Shown piece by piece: positions 3,056 to 8,168 of a stretch of DNA of 64,000 bases. The notes below the pieces were generated by a model. It searched no databases. It was not told where the DNA came from and saw only the letters and a list, made by a program, of their open reading frames with translations. Made by a program: the position numbers and the translations under genes. Numbering within the stretch: the first letter of the stretch is position 1; every line of letters begins with the position of its first letter. The stretch spans positions 1 through 64,000 of the forward strand of contig FAXN01000038.1 in the NCBI GenBank assembly GCA_001493195.1, read 5' to 3'. The DNA is from Sulfurovum sp. enrichment culture clone C5 (GTDB taxonomy: Bacteria > Campylobacterota > Campylobacteria > Campylobacterales > Sulfurovaceae).

Positions 3056-3060
3056 TCCAC

Positions 3061-3403
3061 AGGTGCGATAGGTAGTTGCTGGTGAATTTTTTCACGAGAG
3101 GAAAGTCCGAGCTACACTAGAGACAAGACTCCACCTAACGGGTGGCCAGAGTAATCTGAGGGCAAGTGCAACAGAGAGAAGACTACCGCTTCGGCGGTAA
3201 AAGGTGAAAGGGTGGGGTAAGAGCCCACCAGTAGCTGTGGTAACATGGCTAGCTAGGTAAACCCTGTTTGTAGCAAGAAGTACATGGTAAAAGTCTCTAA
3301 ACTTGGCAGTAATGCCAAAATAGTACTTCGCTTGAGCTTTGTAGTAATACATAGCCTAGATAAATAACTACCCACGACAGAACTCGGCTTATAGTCGCAC
3401 CTG
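3061..3403 (+). ncRNA. rnpB: RNase P RNA (bacterial class A)
   Basis: The universally conserved blocks are present: GAGAGGAAAGTCCGAGCT near the 5' end, GGGCAAGTGCAACAGAGAG, TAGCAAGAA, and CCCACGACAGAACTCGGCTT near the 3' end. The first bases AGGTGCGA pair with TCGCACCT at the end (P1 helix). This RNA is the catalytic part that matures tRNA 5' ends. The final 14 bases recur at 5637, which suggests that DNA was integrated at this gene's 3' end. Confidence 0.95.
3389..3402 (+). other. Candidate attL core: 3' end of rnpB
   Basis: TTATAGTCGCACCT, the last bases of the RNase P RNA, occurs again at 5637-5650 in the same orientation. Such a duplicated RNA-gene end is the usual footprint of site-specific integration. 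Confidence 0.6.
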
Positions 3404-3609
3404 CTATATAATCATAACTTACTATATACTACTTTATACCTATAAAATAGGGATTAAAAAACAATTTTTGATAATTTATATTTTATATAAAATACTATAC
3501 AATACTATACAATAATATATTAAGGTGTACTCAAAAGTGTACCTATTTTTGTATTTTCAAAAAGAAGTACACTTATGTTTTATAAATATATTAAGCATTA
3601 GGAGTAATA
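3403..3609 (+). other. Left end of the rnpB-inserted cassette (non-coding)
   Basis: 207 bases without a gene. It contains a 10-bp unit AATACTATAC twice in tandem (3491-3510) and one copy of a hairpin-forming repeat at 3523. The rest is plain AT-rich sequence leading to the TIGR04255-like gene. Confidence 0.6.
3523..3548 (+). repeat. Hairpin-forming repeat, left copy
   Basis: AGGTGTACT and AGTGTACCT can pair around a CAAA loop and are followed by ATTTTTG, so this could also end rnpB transcription. A copy matching 25 of 26 bases lies at 5574-5599, so the two copies flank the three-gene cassette as direct repeats. Confidence 0.65.
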
Positions 3610-4401
3610 ATGCAATTAGTAAAATCATATAACGATGATAACGCAGTTAAGGTTATAGCATTTGCTGTAAACTTTATGCCTTTGTCTGTAGAAGAAATGG
3701 TAAAATTGATTTCAAAATTGGATACTCAGAATAATATTGAGTATTTTGATAAAGAATTTAATATCAAAAAACCAACGCAAGAAGTAACAATGACAATTCA
3801 TGCGGATGGTACGCAACAGCATGAATTGTCTATTGGTGGAATTATGTACGAAAAAACCAATGATACCGATATGCTAATTTGGAATTTAACAATTAATAAG
3901 AATTCTATTATTGTATCATGTAGAGAATATACGAGATGGGATGCTATTTCCGCTAAAGCAATAGAATTTATTTCTAAAGTGATGGATAATATAGTAAATA
4001 TGAAAATTACTCATATCACACTTGAATATATTGATGAGTTTGAAATTATTAATCACAATGGAAAGTGGAAAGAAGAATTATTCAAGACGAATTGTGATTA
4101 TAATTTATCTCATATCTATAAACTGGATGATTTTTGGCATATAAATCATGGATATTTTTTTGATCATAAAAATTTAAAATTTAAACTTCTTGATACTTTA
4201 AATATTAATTATTTTGCAGATGAAAATGATAATTTAAAACATAAGGTTAATGTGATAACACAACATATGCTTACGCAGATTAATGAATCATACGATAAAT
4301 CCAATATCAAAAAATATTTTGATATTATTCATCAACATAGTAAAGAAATTTTTGAGGCAATAATTAATGATAATATTCTAAAAACATTTAATAGAGGATG
4401 A
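3610..4401 (+). CDS. TIGR04255-like family protein
   Basis: 263 residues, within the usual length of the sporadically distributed TIGR04255 family. The resemblance is in the overall layout: an N-terminal beta-rich half, a TRWDAISAKAIEFISKVM helix near residue 120 preceded by an SIIVSCREY strand, and an LEYIDEF stretch that looks like the family's 'RYINR' region. No catalytic motif, signal peptide or membrane helix is visible. AGGAG lies five bases before the ATG. It is the first of three same-strand genes in the rnpB-inserted cassette. The family's biochemical role is not established. Confidence 0.55.
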   Translation: MQLVKSYNDDNAVKVIAFAVNFMPLSVEEMVKLISKLDTQNNIEYFDKEFNIKKPTQEVTMTIHADGTQQHELSIGGIMYEKTNDTDMLIWNLTINKNSIIVSCREYTRWDAISAKAIEFISKVMDNIVNMKITHITLEYIDEFEIINHNGKWKEELFKTNCDYNLSHIYKLDDFWHINHGYFFDHKNLKFKLLDTLNINYFADENDNLKHKVNVITQHMLTQINESYDKSNIKKYFDIIHQHSKEIFEAIINDNILKTFNRG

Positions 4402-4403
4402 TT

Positions 4404-4976
4404 ATGAAACCCATGACCACTAACTCATTAATTGCAGTATTTTTAATTGCATCAAGTACTGATACTACTATCGCTAGTTCTATTATAAACATAAATAATA
4501 ATCAAATAGCAACACAAGTAAGTAGTAAACAAAATAATAACTTTGGTATTAAATATGATAATATATATAAAAAACTTGATTCATATAGCCGTCTAGAAGC
4601 AAACTGGGATGGATATGGAGCAGTTAAGCCAAGCGGAGATATTATTGAAACAACAAAAAGTTTTTTAGATATTTTAAAAGAAAACAAAATAATTAATCCG
4701 AAAATTATGATAGCACATGATGGGACATTAAGTTTGTTTTGGAAGAATAAAAACAATTACCTTGAGATAGATTTTGATAGCAACAATCATCTATCTTTTT
4801 TTTATGAAATTGATAGAAAAGTTTATGGAGAGGATGACATATCTATTAATAAAGATATACCAAAACAAATTTATGATGCATTGAATATTCTAAGAAATGA
4901 GAATAATACCAGTAATAATATGATACTTGATAAAAAAAATCAAACTACTTCAAGCTCTTATTCAAAGACAGCATAA
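4404..4976 (+). CDS. Unknown protein with an NWDGYGA motif, second gene of the cassette
   Basis: 190 residues from the ATG at 4404, which sits six bases after AGAGG; the ATG at 4398 touches that site. Residues 1-30 are weakly hydrophobic and could be a signal or anchor. The central LEANWDGYGAVKPS segment (about residues 67-80) is a motif I have seen in phage- and island-borne hypothetical proteins; after it come alternating strands and helices, and a polar tail. It starts just after the first gene's stop, so the genes are probably co-transcribed. Function unknown. Confidence 0.6.
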   Translation: MKPMTTNSLIAVFLIASSTDTTIASSIININNNQIATQVSSKQNNNFGIKYDNIYKKLDSYSRLEANWDGYGAVKPSGDIIETTKSFLDILKENKIINPKIMIAHDGTLSLFWKNKNNYLEIDFDSNNHLSFFYEIDRKVYGEDDISINKDIPKQIYDALNILRNENNTSNNMILDKKNQTTSSSYSKTA

Positions 4977-4986
4977 ATAAAATAAT

Positions 4987-5466
4987 ATGATATATGATGA
5001 ACTTTTAAAGCTTGAAACATCTAAGCAGAGTCCACATTCTCCTGGCATAATACAAAATAATGAATTAGTAGCACGATTGCTTGTTCCAGAATATATTGAT
5101 GACGATGGGCAAGTGCTTGCTTCTGCTTTTTCTCATTCTGATATTTCTGTTTTGAGATGCATTTATGATTTTGAATCAAATAAGAATTTAACAATAAAAC
5201 AATTGTTAAGTAACCCAAAAAATATTTACAAAGGATATATAACTGCAAAGATATGTAGCTTGAGAAATATTACATATGAAAATTTATCAAGTAGGTTGTG
5301 TTATGTAATTGATTCTGCAACAAAAGATAAAATTGGGCATGCAGATATAAAAAAAATTACCAAAAGAATCTTAAATAATACAAATATTGTATTATCAGAA
5401 AAAAGATTAAAAAAGTTTATAGAATCAAAAATTTTAGATGTGTTTGACAAAGAAATTAAACAATAA
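4987..5466 (+). CDS. Unknown protein, third gene of the rnpB cassette
   Basis: 159 residues, starting 10 bases after the second gene. The N-terminal half contains LVARLLVPEYIDDDGQVLASAFSHSDI-type sequence; the C-terminal half is basic and mostly helical (KKITKRILNNT...KRLKKFIESK). No catalytic motif is recognised. Only a weak A-rich leader precedes the ATG, so translation may depend on the upstream gene. It is followed by non-coding sequence carrying the right-hand repeat and the second rnpB-end copy. Confidence 0.55.
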   Translation: MIYDELLKLETSKQSPHSPGIIQNNELVARLLVPEYIDDDGQVLASAFSHSDISVLRCIYDFESNKNLTIKQLLSNPKNIYKGYITAKICSLRNITYENLSSRLCYVIDSATKDKIGHADIKKITKRILNNTNIVLSEKRLKKFIESKILDVFDKEIKQ

Positions 5467-5573
5467 TTTTCTAAAATTAGTTTGAGTTTTAAAAAGTTAA
5501 TAAAATTGGTAGCTTTTTATGGCTTATGGTAGCACTATATTTTTTATTCCCTTTAGCGTATTTATAAAGCTAT

Positions 5574-5599
5574 AGGTGTACTCAAAAGTATACCTATTT
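5574..5599 (+). repeat. Hairpin-forming repeat, right copy
   Basis: Same 26-base unit as at 3523 with one change (AGTATACCT for AGTGTACCT), which improves base pairing in the stem. It lies about 50 bases inside the right end of the cassette. Confidence 0.65.
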
Positions 5600-5636
5600 C
5601 TATATCGTGCCCTAAGAATAGGCAGGTGTGGATAAT

Positions 5637-5650
5637 TTATAGTCGCACCT
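5637..5650 (+). other. Candidate attR core: copy of the rnpB 3' end
   Basis: TTATAGTCGCACCT is identical to the last 14 bases of rnpB and in the same orientation, but no other rnpB sequence precedes it. By chance a 14-base match this close would be very rare. Confidence 0.6.
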
Positions 5651-5795: not shown

Positions 5796-6092
5796 ATGGT
5801 TGCATATAAAAAAGATGAGATAGTATCTGCTAGTGATATGGCTAGGACATTCGCTACTGTTCTTAATAGTATTGTTAAATGCAGTAAAGATAAAATTGCT
5901 ATTTCAAAAAACAATAAGTTAGAAGCTGTAATGATAAATATAGATGAGTATGAAAGACTAAAAGAAGCTGAAGAATTTTTAGAGCATCAAGAAATATACA
6001 ACTTAGTCAAACAAAGAAGTACAGGAAGTCAAATATCTCACAAAGATATGCTTAAAAAGCTTGGTATTAGTCAAAATGATTTAATGGATTAA
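5796..6092 (+). CDS. Phd/YefM family antitoxin
   Basis: 98 residues from the ATG at 5796, after AAGGAGACTCAGA. The opening DEIVSASDMARTFATVLN is the DNA-binding fold of the Phd/YefM family, followed by KLEAVMINIDEYERLKEAEE, the hallmark of these antitoxins. The C-terminal tail (about 65-98) should wrap the toxin. Its stop and the toxin start are one base apart. The protein should neutralise the RelE-like partner and repress the operon. Confidence 0.9.
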   Translation: MVAYKKDEIVSASDMARTFATVLNSIVKCSKDKIAISKNNKLEAVMINIDEYERLKEAEEFLEHQEIYNLVKQRSTGSQISHKDMLKKLGISQNDLMD

Positions 6093-6093
6093 T

Positions 6094-6387
6094 ATGTATG
6101 ATATTGTATATCATCAAGATGTAGAAAGTGATTTAAAACAACTTGGACATAGAACTCTTTTATTGGTATTGAAAAAGATAGAAAAAATTGCCAAAGAGCC
6201 ATATATTGGTATAGATTTGGGCAATAAGGCAAACTTAAACCTCTCTGGATATAAGAAAATTTATGTTGATAATAAAAAAATTAGAATCGTCTATAAAATC
6301 ATAGAAGATAAGATTGAGATTTATATAGTAGCTGTTGGTAAAAGAGATGATATGAATGTTTATAAAAAAGCAAATGATAGAATATGA
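6094..6387 (+). CDS. RelE/ParE superfamily toxin
   Basis: 97 residues, with the family's short layout: MYDIVYHQDVESDLKQL helix at the start, NLSGYKKIYVDNKKIRIVYKI in the middle and IYIVAVGKRDDMNVYKKA at the end, the last being the catalytic GKR-D-YK region typical of RelE-type ribosome-dependent mRNA interferases. It pairs with the Phd/YefM antitoxin. Its stop overlaps the start of the next gene (ATGA). Confidence 0.88.
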   Translation: MYDIVYHQDVESDLKQLGHRTLLLVLKKIEKIAKEPYIGIDLGNKANLNLSGYKKIYVDNKKIRIVYKIIEDKIEIYIVAVGKRDDMNVYKKANDRI

Positions 6388-8168
6388 TATATACAACCTG
6401 TGCTTTAGATTGTTATGATGGTTGCAGTATAGTTTATGACAATGATAAAATAAGCGGGGACAAATTGCATCCTGTTACGCAAGGGGCTCTTTGTGCAAAT
6501 GTAAATAAAAATATATTCAAAGAACCACGCATAACAACACCTATGATAAATGGTAAAGCTATAAGCATGGACGAAGCTTTGGAGTATATTGCTAGTGTGG
6601 TGGATGACAAAACTTTACTCTGGAGAGGAAGTGGAAATGTTGCTGTTATGCAAGAGGTCACAAACCTGCTAATGGGTAAAATTGATGGAACTATCACAAA
6701 AGGCTCTTTGTGTGATGGCGCTGGAGAAGCTGGGATAATAGAGGGTAGAGGGGTAAATCTAACTTTGCCATTGGAGCAAATAGCAAAAAGTGAAGTTGTA
6801 GTCATTTGGGGCAGGGATGTAACTGTAACAAATAGACACATATTACCATTTATAAAAGATAAAAAAATAATCGTCATAGACCCTATAAAAACAAAAATAG
6901 CCAAAAGTGCCCATTTGCATATACAGCTAGCTCCTAGAAGCGATTTATATCTAGCGGTTTTATTAGCTAGATTTATCTTTATGGAAGAGTTGCACGATAA
7001 AAAGTGGCTTGATAAATTTGCAAGTGACTATGAAGAGTATTATGATTTTGTTCGTACATTTCGCATAAAAGCACTGTTGGCTCTCATAGATACAAACTTG
7101 GATACTATAGGCGATATGCTATCATTGATAGAAGGTAAAAAAGTAGTATTTTTAGTTGGTGCTGGAGTGCAAAAGTATAGTATAGGAAATGAAGTTTTAA
7201 GAGCCATAGATGCCGTTGCTGTACTTCTTGGGCTTTTTGGCAAAGAGGGATGTGGAGTTAGCTATCTTGGTGATTCTAAACTTGGATTTAAGAATCCATT
7301 TGTTACAGAAATCAAAAAAGTATCAAAAGTAGATACTCCTTTTGATGAGTTTGACTCAGTTATCATACAAGGTGGCAATCCATGCGAATCTATGCCAAAT
7401 ACAAATGAAGTTATAAATAGACTTGAAAATGTAAAAAATGTGATATATTTTGGGCTATATGAAAATGAAACTTCAAGAAGAGCAAATGTAGTTATACCTG
7501 CAAAAAACTTTTTTGAAAAAAATGATGTTAGACTAAGTTATGGGCATAGCTATGTATCAAAAATCAACAAAATAAAAGAGTGTGATTTTGGCATCAGTGA
7601 ATATGATTTTGTAAGAGAAATATTTAAAATAAAAAGCTTTGGTGGGCTTGAGAGTGAAGAGTATTACCTAAACTATTGGTTGGACCAATGCGATAAAATG
7701 GGTAATATTTTCATATCAAAAGCATATAGAGAGCTTCCATATGAGAATGGTTTTGGCAAAGATGAAGATGAAGAGTTCGTCTTTTTGGATGACCATGATG
7801 ATGATTTTATTGAGAGAAAAAAACTCAAACGACCAAGAGGATATAAAAATATTTTAGATAAAGAGAACTCTTTTTGGTTGGTGAATAGCAAATCAAATGA
7901 TTCATTAAACACACAATTTGAAAAGAGCAATAGGGTTATATTGCATCCTGACTTGGGATTTTGTGATGATGAAGAGGTGATGGTTTCTTCGGAGTTTGGA
8001 GAGATAAGATTGAGGATAAAAAACTCTGTAGATATAAGGATAGATTGTGTGAAAATCACAGCAAATACGATAGGTATAAACAAGCTTACTCCATCTATCA
8101 TATCAAATGAGGGGCATAATGCTTGTTATGGGGAAGTAAAGGTATCACTATCTAAAGTGTTGATATAA
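6384..8168 (+). CDS. Molybdopterin-dependent oxidoreductase
   Basis: 594 residues. The N terminus carries a [4Fe-4S] motif with cysteines at 6, 10, 14 and 37 (TTCALDCYDGC...GALC), followed by LWRGSGN, GSLCDGAGEAG near 107, and WGRDVTVTNRH and APRSDLYLA, all typical of the DMSO-reductase/formate dehydrogenase superfamily. The C-terminal beta-barrel domain (about 500-594) is present. It is shorter than most catalytic subunits, and no partner iron-sulfur or membrane subunit is adjacent, so the substrate cannot be named. It has no twin-arginine signal, so it is probably cytoplasmic. The gene begins inside the toxin stop codon, probably a by-product of insertion upstream. Confidence 0.82.
   Translation: MIYTTCALDCYDGCSIVYDNDKISGDKLHPVTQGALCANVNKNIFKEPRITTPMINGKAISMDEALEYIASVVDDKTLLWRGSGNVAVMQEVTNLLMGKIDGTITKGSLCDGAGEAGIIEGRGVNLTLPLEQIAKSEVVVIWGRDVTVTNRHILPFIKDKKIIVIDPIKTKIAKSAHLHIQLAPRSDLYLAVLLARFIFMEELHDKKWLDKFASDYEEYYDFVRTFRIKALLALIDTNLDTIGDMLSLIEGKKVVFLVGAGVQKYSIGNEVLRAIDAVAVLLGLFGKEGCGVSYLGDSKLGFKNPFVTEIKKVSKVDTPFDEFDSVIIQGGNPCESMPNTNEVINRLENVKNVIYFGLYENETSRRANVVIPAKNFFEKNDVRLSYGHSYVSKINKIKECDFGISEYDFVREIFKIKSFGGLESEEYYLNYWLDQCDKMGNIFISKAYRELPYENGFGKDEDEEFVFLDDHDDDFIERKKLKRPRGYKNILDKENSFWLVNSKSNDSLNTQFEKSNRVILHPDLGFCDDEEVMVSSEFGEIRLRIKNSVDIRIDCVKITANTIGINKLTPSIISNEGHNACYGEVKVSLSKVLI

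Follow-up and report, generated by a model that had tools for sequence, protein, structure and literature searches.

Several kinds of described element come close to the locus reported here. Cis-mobilizable elements (CIMEs), known from ICE and IME biology, keep attL and attR although their integration and transfer genes have been lost (PMC5704250). The ssrA-GIs of Dehalococcoides integrate site-specifically at a single-copy structural RNA gene (ssrA, which encodes tmRNA), duplicate the end of their target, and form tandem islands, some of them without an integrase (PMC3146451). Prophages of tRNA and tmRNA genes use a tyrosine integrase, restore the 3' end of the RNA gene with their core and have arm repeats on both sides. 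The only sites named in the figures of TIGER/Islander are tRNA/tmRNA, protein-coding and intergenic ones (PMC12424338), and among open-access papers we found none that reports rnpB as an attachment site, which is no proof of novelty. A phage integrase target in rnpB, served by its own integrase clade, is nevertheless new to us.

The element in our window resembles a CIME in that it keeps attL and attR without integration genes at the end of a target gene, where tandem stacking is possible. It departs from the CIME pattern in that its source elements are phages, both tailed and filamentous, that its target is rnpB, and that its mobility is a prediction. With the ssrA-GIs it shares site-specific integration at a structural RNA gene and a duplicated target end; however, the target is rnpB rather than ssrA, the direct repeat at rnpB is 14-15 bp as against 20 bp, and the integrases of this site are of the tyrosine type (PF00589), not the serine recombinase DsiB. 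The prophages of tRNA and tmRNA genes differ from it in their target, which here is the RNase P RNA.

The window is the whole 64 kb stretch of DNA that was analysed. On its forward strand lies a full-length class A RNase P RNA gene (rnpB, 3060-3407; Rfam RF00010, 266 bits), the target, which retained its full length after integration. The last bases of this gene, TTATAGTCGCACCT at 3389-3402 (+), constitute the attL core; they form the 3' strand of helix P1 and pair with the 5' end of rnpB in the Rfam alignment. The second copy of this rnpB end, the attR core, lies at 5637-5650 (+). The preliminary description had noticed that the last 14 bases of rnpB recur in the same orientation and had placed the element boundaries at 3389 and 5650; the repeat is exact, and both boundaries are correct. 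These are the two exact forward copies of TTATAGTCGCACCT in the 64 kb window, which contains no third even with one mismatch allowed; 0.01 matches are expected there by chance, and none of 100 shuffles contained two copies. Thus delimited, the element at the 3' end of rnpB is 2,248 bp long (3403 to 5650).

Six relatives of the same genus (G004, G001, G010, G008, G007 and G006) have an empty site, judged by gene order. In these genomes 54-87 bp separate rnpB from the next gene, a homologue of the right-flank gene at 6384-8168 (+) of the window, which by sequence resemblance is molybdopterin-oxidoreductase-like; tblastn identity is 59-84% in the relatives with a continuous match, and the match is fragmented in G006. 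All six lack, at the rnpB site, both the three genes of the element (A-B-C) and a toxin-antitoxin pair that stands outside attR at 5796-6387 (+) and consists of a Phd/YefM antitoxin and a ParE-like toxin (Pfam PF02604 and PF05016). This pair is probably a separate insertion. An antitoxin of the Phd/YefM type also follows the A-B-C operon of G006 (L064:1003-1287). The comparison with relatives lacking the genes, proposed earlier as the decisive check, succeeded in part: a single rnpB followed by the 6384 gene was found in six relatives, but alignment of the junction at the nucleotide level was insignificant (score 20, shuffle maximum 26, for the DNA right of 5650 against the one empty-site spacer scored, L016). 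Because this DNA is too short and too AT-rich for a significant alignment, the evidence for the empty site is gene order. In G002 (L019:4340-4832) about 160 additional bases interrupt the rnpB match, and a run of N comes next; this is probably an assembly gap.

The same site is occupied in G009, another member of the genus, by an intact 35.7 kb prophage whose tyrosine integrase gene directly follows rnpB. Copies of a 15 bp core lie at C2:141359 and 177063, the second just before the homologue of the 6384 gene. The right part of this prophage contains phage-like genes, including an apparent diversity-generating retroelement. The likely retroelement (L027:33-3148) has a variable protein ending in GGAWDNSSAAGVGNVTLYHYRTGSDNEVGVRAYI and a reverse-transcriptase ORF; at its start, this ORF encodes the same segment in an Asn-rich template form.

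Both ends of the window element can be matched to this prophage. The inner segment of attL (3403-3558, +) is identical to the G009 segment between rnpB and int at 111 of 153 columns (73%; score 92, maximum of 300 shuffles 37), and that of attR (5563-5636, +) to the G009 attR at 57 of 74 columns (77%; score 55, shuffle maximum 23). Since both window ends are homologous to the ends of the G009 prophage, both are phage att ends, with phage-derived inner segments. No remnant of int is detectable between 3559 and 3610.

A second repeat, missed on first reading, lies within these segments: 32 nt, 91% identical, at 3523-3554 and 5574-5605 (AGGTGTACTCAAAAGTRTACCTATTT), and found nowhere else in the 1.6 Mb genome. 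On the attL side it includes an arm-type repeat with a doubled GTGTAC motif (AGGTGTACTCAAAAGTGTACCTATTT, 3523-3548, +), conserved in position in most other attL sequences, and on the attR side the corresponding AGGTGTACTCAAAAGTATACCTATTT (5574-5599, +), one base off the attL copy. A possible third, inverted arm motif is AAGTACACTT at 3565-3574 (+), for which several other elements have GGGTACACC or GGTACAA in the corresponding position. The succession of core, spacer and doubled arm is common to attR and to most attL sequences compared; the motifs themselves vary among rnpB elements, and the attL arm is weak or absent in G213 and G319. The core and arm sequences of the window look intact. We also considered the 26 bp repeats as terminator-like palindromes and rejected this, although pairing is possible with G-U pairs: arm-type integrase sites fit better, because in attR and most attL sequences the doubled motif stands at fixed distances from the core, in host and phage DNA alike.

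An attP of this kind exists in the phage world as well. On an IMG/VR contig (L189:7790-9077) arm, core, arm and int follow one another uninterrupted and without rnpB, and the arm, GTGTATAAAGAGTGTATAAAA, recurs unchanged as the attR arm of the G213 element, which lacks an integrase. The empty sites by gene order, the G009 prophage with its homologous attL and attR, and this phage attP together support the original proposal of integration at the 3' end of rnpB. Two further genomes, G481 and G396, have filamentous prophages with a full int at the site. The filamentous-phage-like genes are a GPA-type replication protein, a secretin, a P-loop ATPase in the morphogenesis position and a small coat-like protein; the family scan behind these calls covered only G481 of the two. 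The integrase gene is reversed relative to rnpB in both (L170 in G481, L186 in G396) and has the same orientation as rnpB in G009. In a tree of 29 sequences, the rnpB-core integrases fall together as one group (support 96/93), and no value as low arose in 500 shuffles of the labels. Members of this clade are present in G009, G481, G396, G390, G307 and G267; the last three, of which G267 is from another family of the order, have the integrase adjoining rnpB and a right end that was not located. Two unrelated types of phage, tailed and filamentous, use rnpB by way of one integrase clade.

That rnpB is an unusual site, as the preliminary description held, agrees with our finding no paper on it, but within the window's family (probably Sulfurovaceae) rnpB is a recurrent integration hotspot. 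The 15-base core pattern has a match in 66 of 175 family genomes, mostly at rnpB where checked, and at least two matches in 15 of them; the reversed pattern gave a handful of matches in all 175, and the extra core copies of G435, G492 and G521 were not in att context on inspection. The elements bounded by rnpB ends include the filamentous prophages of G481 (13235 bp) and G396 (~13.7 kb, right core with one mismatch), elements with no more than a C-terminal relic of int in G161 (2465 bp) and G473 (3726 bp), and elements with no integrase detected between the cores in G213 (4336 bp), G319 (1467 bp) and G493 (732 bp). Several occupied sites are thus small, 0.7-4.3 kb, with two ends and an integrase that is absent or present as a relic only. 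In G441 an N-terminal part of an integrase adjoins an IS30-like gene, and further att-bounded segments lie on other contigs, one of them 888 bp long with a PBECR3 nuclease-like gene; these segments are consistent with tandem stacking.

Other cargo at rnpB deserves a brief record. PBECR3 nuclease-like genes are found in two different rnpB elements (L172:6053-6463 and L129:17961-18368), the former inside the 888 bp segment, between two att copies with different arms. A TOTE conflict-system primase-helicase lies inside or beside att-bounded elements with the rnpB core in G213 (L138:544-3936), where an AAA_14 ATPase accompanies it, and in G441 (L174:1675-3876), where the gene is a close homologue.

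The window element itself carries three same-strand ORFs of 263, 192 and 159 aa with short gaps or none between them. They had been described from the first as a TIGR04255-like gene, a gene with an NWDGYGA motif and a third one; all are intact, and the third has no convincing family match. Gene A (3610-4401, +) belongs to the TIGR04255 family (NCBIfam, 6.6e-18), with 65.4 bits against a cut-off of 30; its model is confident (pLDDT 92.9), but the TATA-binding-protein-like matches returned by Foldseek (best E 9.8e-4, TM 0.24-0.34) were too weak to name the fold. Gene B (4398-4976, +) encodes the NWDGYG protein, which matches the C-terminal part of PADLOC PDC-M32A (9.1e-7). Gene C (4987-5466, +) found no convincing match in family searches, and its predicted fold (pLDDT 94.0) had no PDB match below E 1. 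In family alignments of C, residues E26, R30, S54, H118 and A119 are invariant and R57 and D120 nearly so.

As judged from sequence, A-B-C is a conserved operon with a sporadic distribution across several phyla and in phages. Homologues of all three genes stand together in G113, G277, G394, G195 and G006, and B-C lies at a contig end in G198. In a GTDB scan, B had A and/or C as a neighbour in Victivallales, Desulfobacterota, Nostocales, Bacteroidota and Planctomycetota, and in 6 of 6 tested cases where our small A profile had missed A, the gene before B scored as TIGR04255. Many of these operons are set among ordinary chromosomal genes, outside prophages. Others have phage genes for neighbours: in Arcobacter LC1 (L068) portal and terminase flank the operon, in L071 it adjoins a GPA-type Rep and an SSB-sized gene, and in L092 it stands beside a phage integrase. 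On L093 and L094, IMG/VR contigs whose gene order is P2-like, a related operon stands directly beside the portal and next to the terminase, made up of TIGR04255, a B relative and a probable C relative; the third gene of L093 is weakly C-like (hhalign 49%). When IMG/VR was searched with the single proteins A and C there were no matches, whereas profiles gave some, and tblastn of plasmids and phages with B or C gave none. PADLOC matches among the neighbours of A-B-C are scattered and were counted without a background control, so we claim no enrichment in defence islands.

With only modest confidence, we favor the hypothesis that A-B-C is an anti-phage defence system, which would have been retained for the protection it gives the host from other phages. 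The early suggestion of a compact defence or toxin system is still inference, but it is strengthened by phage carriage, by the related operon at the P2 portal hotspot and by the relation to PDC-M32. The stretch that separates gpA from portal in P2 has been described as an anti-phage hotspot (PMC9122126; PMC9519451); the operons of L093 and L094 are like the cos-proximal (old/tin) hotspot of P2-like phages in standing beside the portal, whereas the window copy stands at rnpB, outside any P2-like phage. PDC-M32, which consists of PDC-M32A (375 aa) and PDC-M32B (123 aa), is a phage defence candidate rather than a tested system (PMC11514479; PMC12429752). The resemblance is to the C-terminal part of PDC-M32A, matched by B in 6 of 6 members tested; window B aligns with positions 254-356 of 375 and so falls short of the full-length protein. 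A planctomycete pair of B-like and C-like genes matches PDC-M32A at 4.5e-10 and PDC-M32B at 1.1e-6, and the C profile aligns with the remote C relative of this pair in L083 (hhalign 76%, E 2.3e-5). The window operon differs from PDC-M32 in having a TIGR04255 gene, a B without the long N-terminal part and a C without a PDC-M32B match. If A-B-C is a three-part defence module, A or B may act as sensor or adaptor and C, with its conserved E, R, S and H-A-D residues and its unmatched predicted fold, as candidate effector; this assignment of roles to all three is a guess.

We consider it less probable, though still worth weighing, that A-B-C serves the phage, either as a module for fitness or regulation (control of lysogeny, take-over of the host) or as an addiction cassette of toxin-antitoxin type. 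Its presence in prophages and phage contigs would suit such a role, as would an operon of small proteins with conserved polar residues in C and no known defence domain. However, many copies are chromosomal and lie outside prophages, three genes are conserved in strict order, and the related operon stands in the P2 portal position, a hotspot with clustered defence systems (PMC9122126; PMC9519451).

How these genes came to stand between two phage ends can be explained with some assurance: the element is most likely an integrase-less, att-bounded, CIME-like remnant of a G009-type phage. Recombination by a tyrosine integrase between the final ~14 bp of rnpB and the attP of the phage (left arm, core, right arm, int) would have given rnpB a new end, taken from the phage copy of the core, and shifted its original end to the right edge of the element. 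Deletion of int and the phage body would then have left the two ends and the cargo operon A-B-C. There is no integrase between the window repeats and no convincing match to a mobility family among the three ORFs, which supports the earlier view of the element as non-autonomous in its present state. In keeping with a CIME, it has attL and attR and no integration or transfer genes; compared with prophages of the rnpB-integrase group, it has the core at the rnpB 3' end and doubled arms on both sides but not the clade integrase between the att sites. We infer that int was lost from the window copy rather than absent from the start, and the ends may still be cuttable by an integrase acting in trans.

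The satellite-type element of the preliminary description was not borne out, and we regard it as unlikely that the cassette is a true non-autonomous satellite, a minimal unit that never had int and relied on an rnpB phage, resident or infecting, for the integrase that moved it in trans. Such a history would account for two complete ends with arm repeats that differ by one base, for the recurrence of integrase-less elements (2248 bp in the window, 4336 bp in G213, 1467 bp in G319, 732 bp in G493 and the 888 bp segment of G441), and for the arm GTGTATAAAGAGTGTATAAAA shared by the G213 attR and the phage attP of L189. But the sibling elements of G161 and G473 retain relics of int between similar ends, a pattern of decay, and arm motifs differ from element to element, as expected if each had its own integrase. 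Nor does the window's own genome (a draft of 105 contigs, 93% complete) contain an integrase of the rnpB clade at E<=1e-20. Phage satellites of the PICI or P4 type have their own integrase plus regulatory or packaging genes with which they exploit a helper, and the cassette has no integrase, regulator or packaging gene. The relics of G161, G473 and G441, taken with the integrase-less elements of the window, G213, G319 and G493, favor the decay of prophages to CIME-like remnants over a purpose-built satellite. The last reading, a meaningless chance repeat of 14 bp around three genes brought in by other routes, draws on the short core and the AT-rich genome and was rejected as wholly implausible, given the shuffles and the 0.01 matches expected in the window, the homology of both flanks to the att ends of a prophage, and eight other family members with the same arrangement.

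A more ambitious model, to which we assign a low probability, goes beyond the CIME-like remnant. Here rnpB would have its own class of small integrase-less cassettes with complete arm and core ends, excised and inserted in trans by the rnpB-specific integrases of tailed and filamentous phages resident in the same cell. These cassettes would build up a modular defence island, driven by phages, by stacking defence genes (A-B-C, TOTE, the PBECR3 nuclease), and A-B-C would be a new three-gene type of defence whose C component has an undescribed fold.

Mapping tools whose targets are limited to tRNA and tmRNA genes would call islands at rnpB intergenic or miss them. The A-B-C operon offers a testable defence candidate, in which C combines a confidently predicted fold with the lack of a solved match. 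RNase P RNA joins the short list of structural RNA genes that serve as landing sites for phages, and the rnpB site provides a compact place in which to find phage-borne cargo in little-cultured bacteria.
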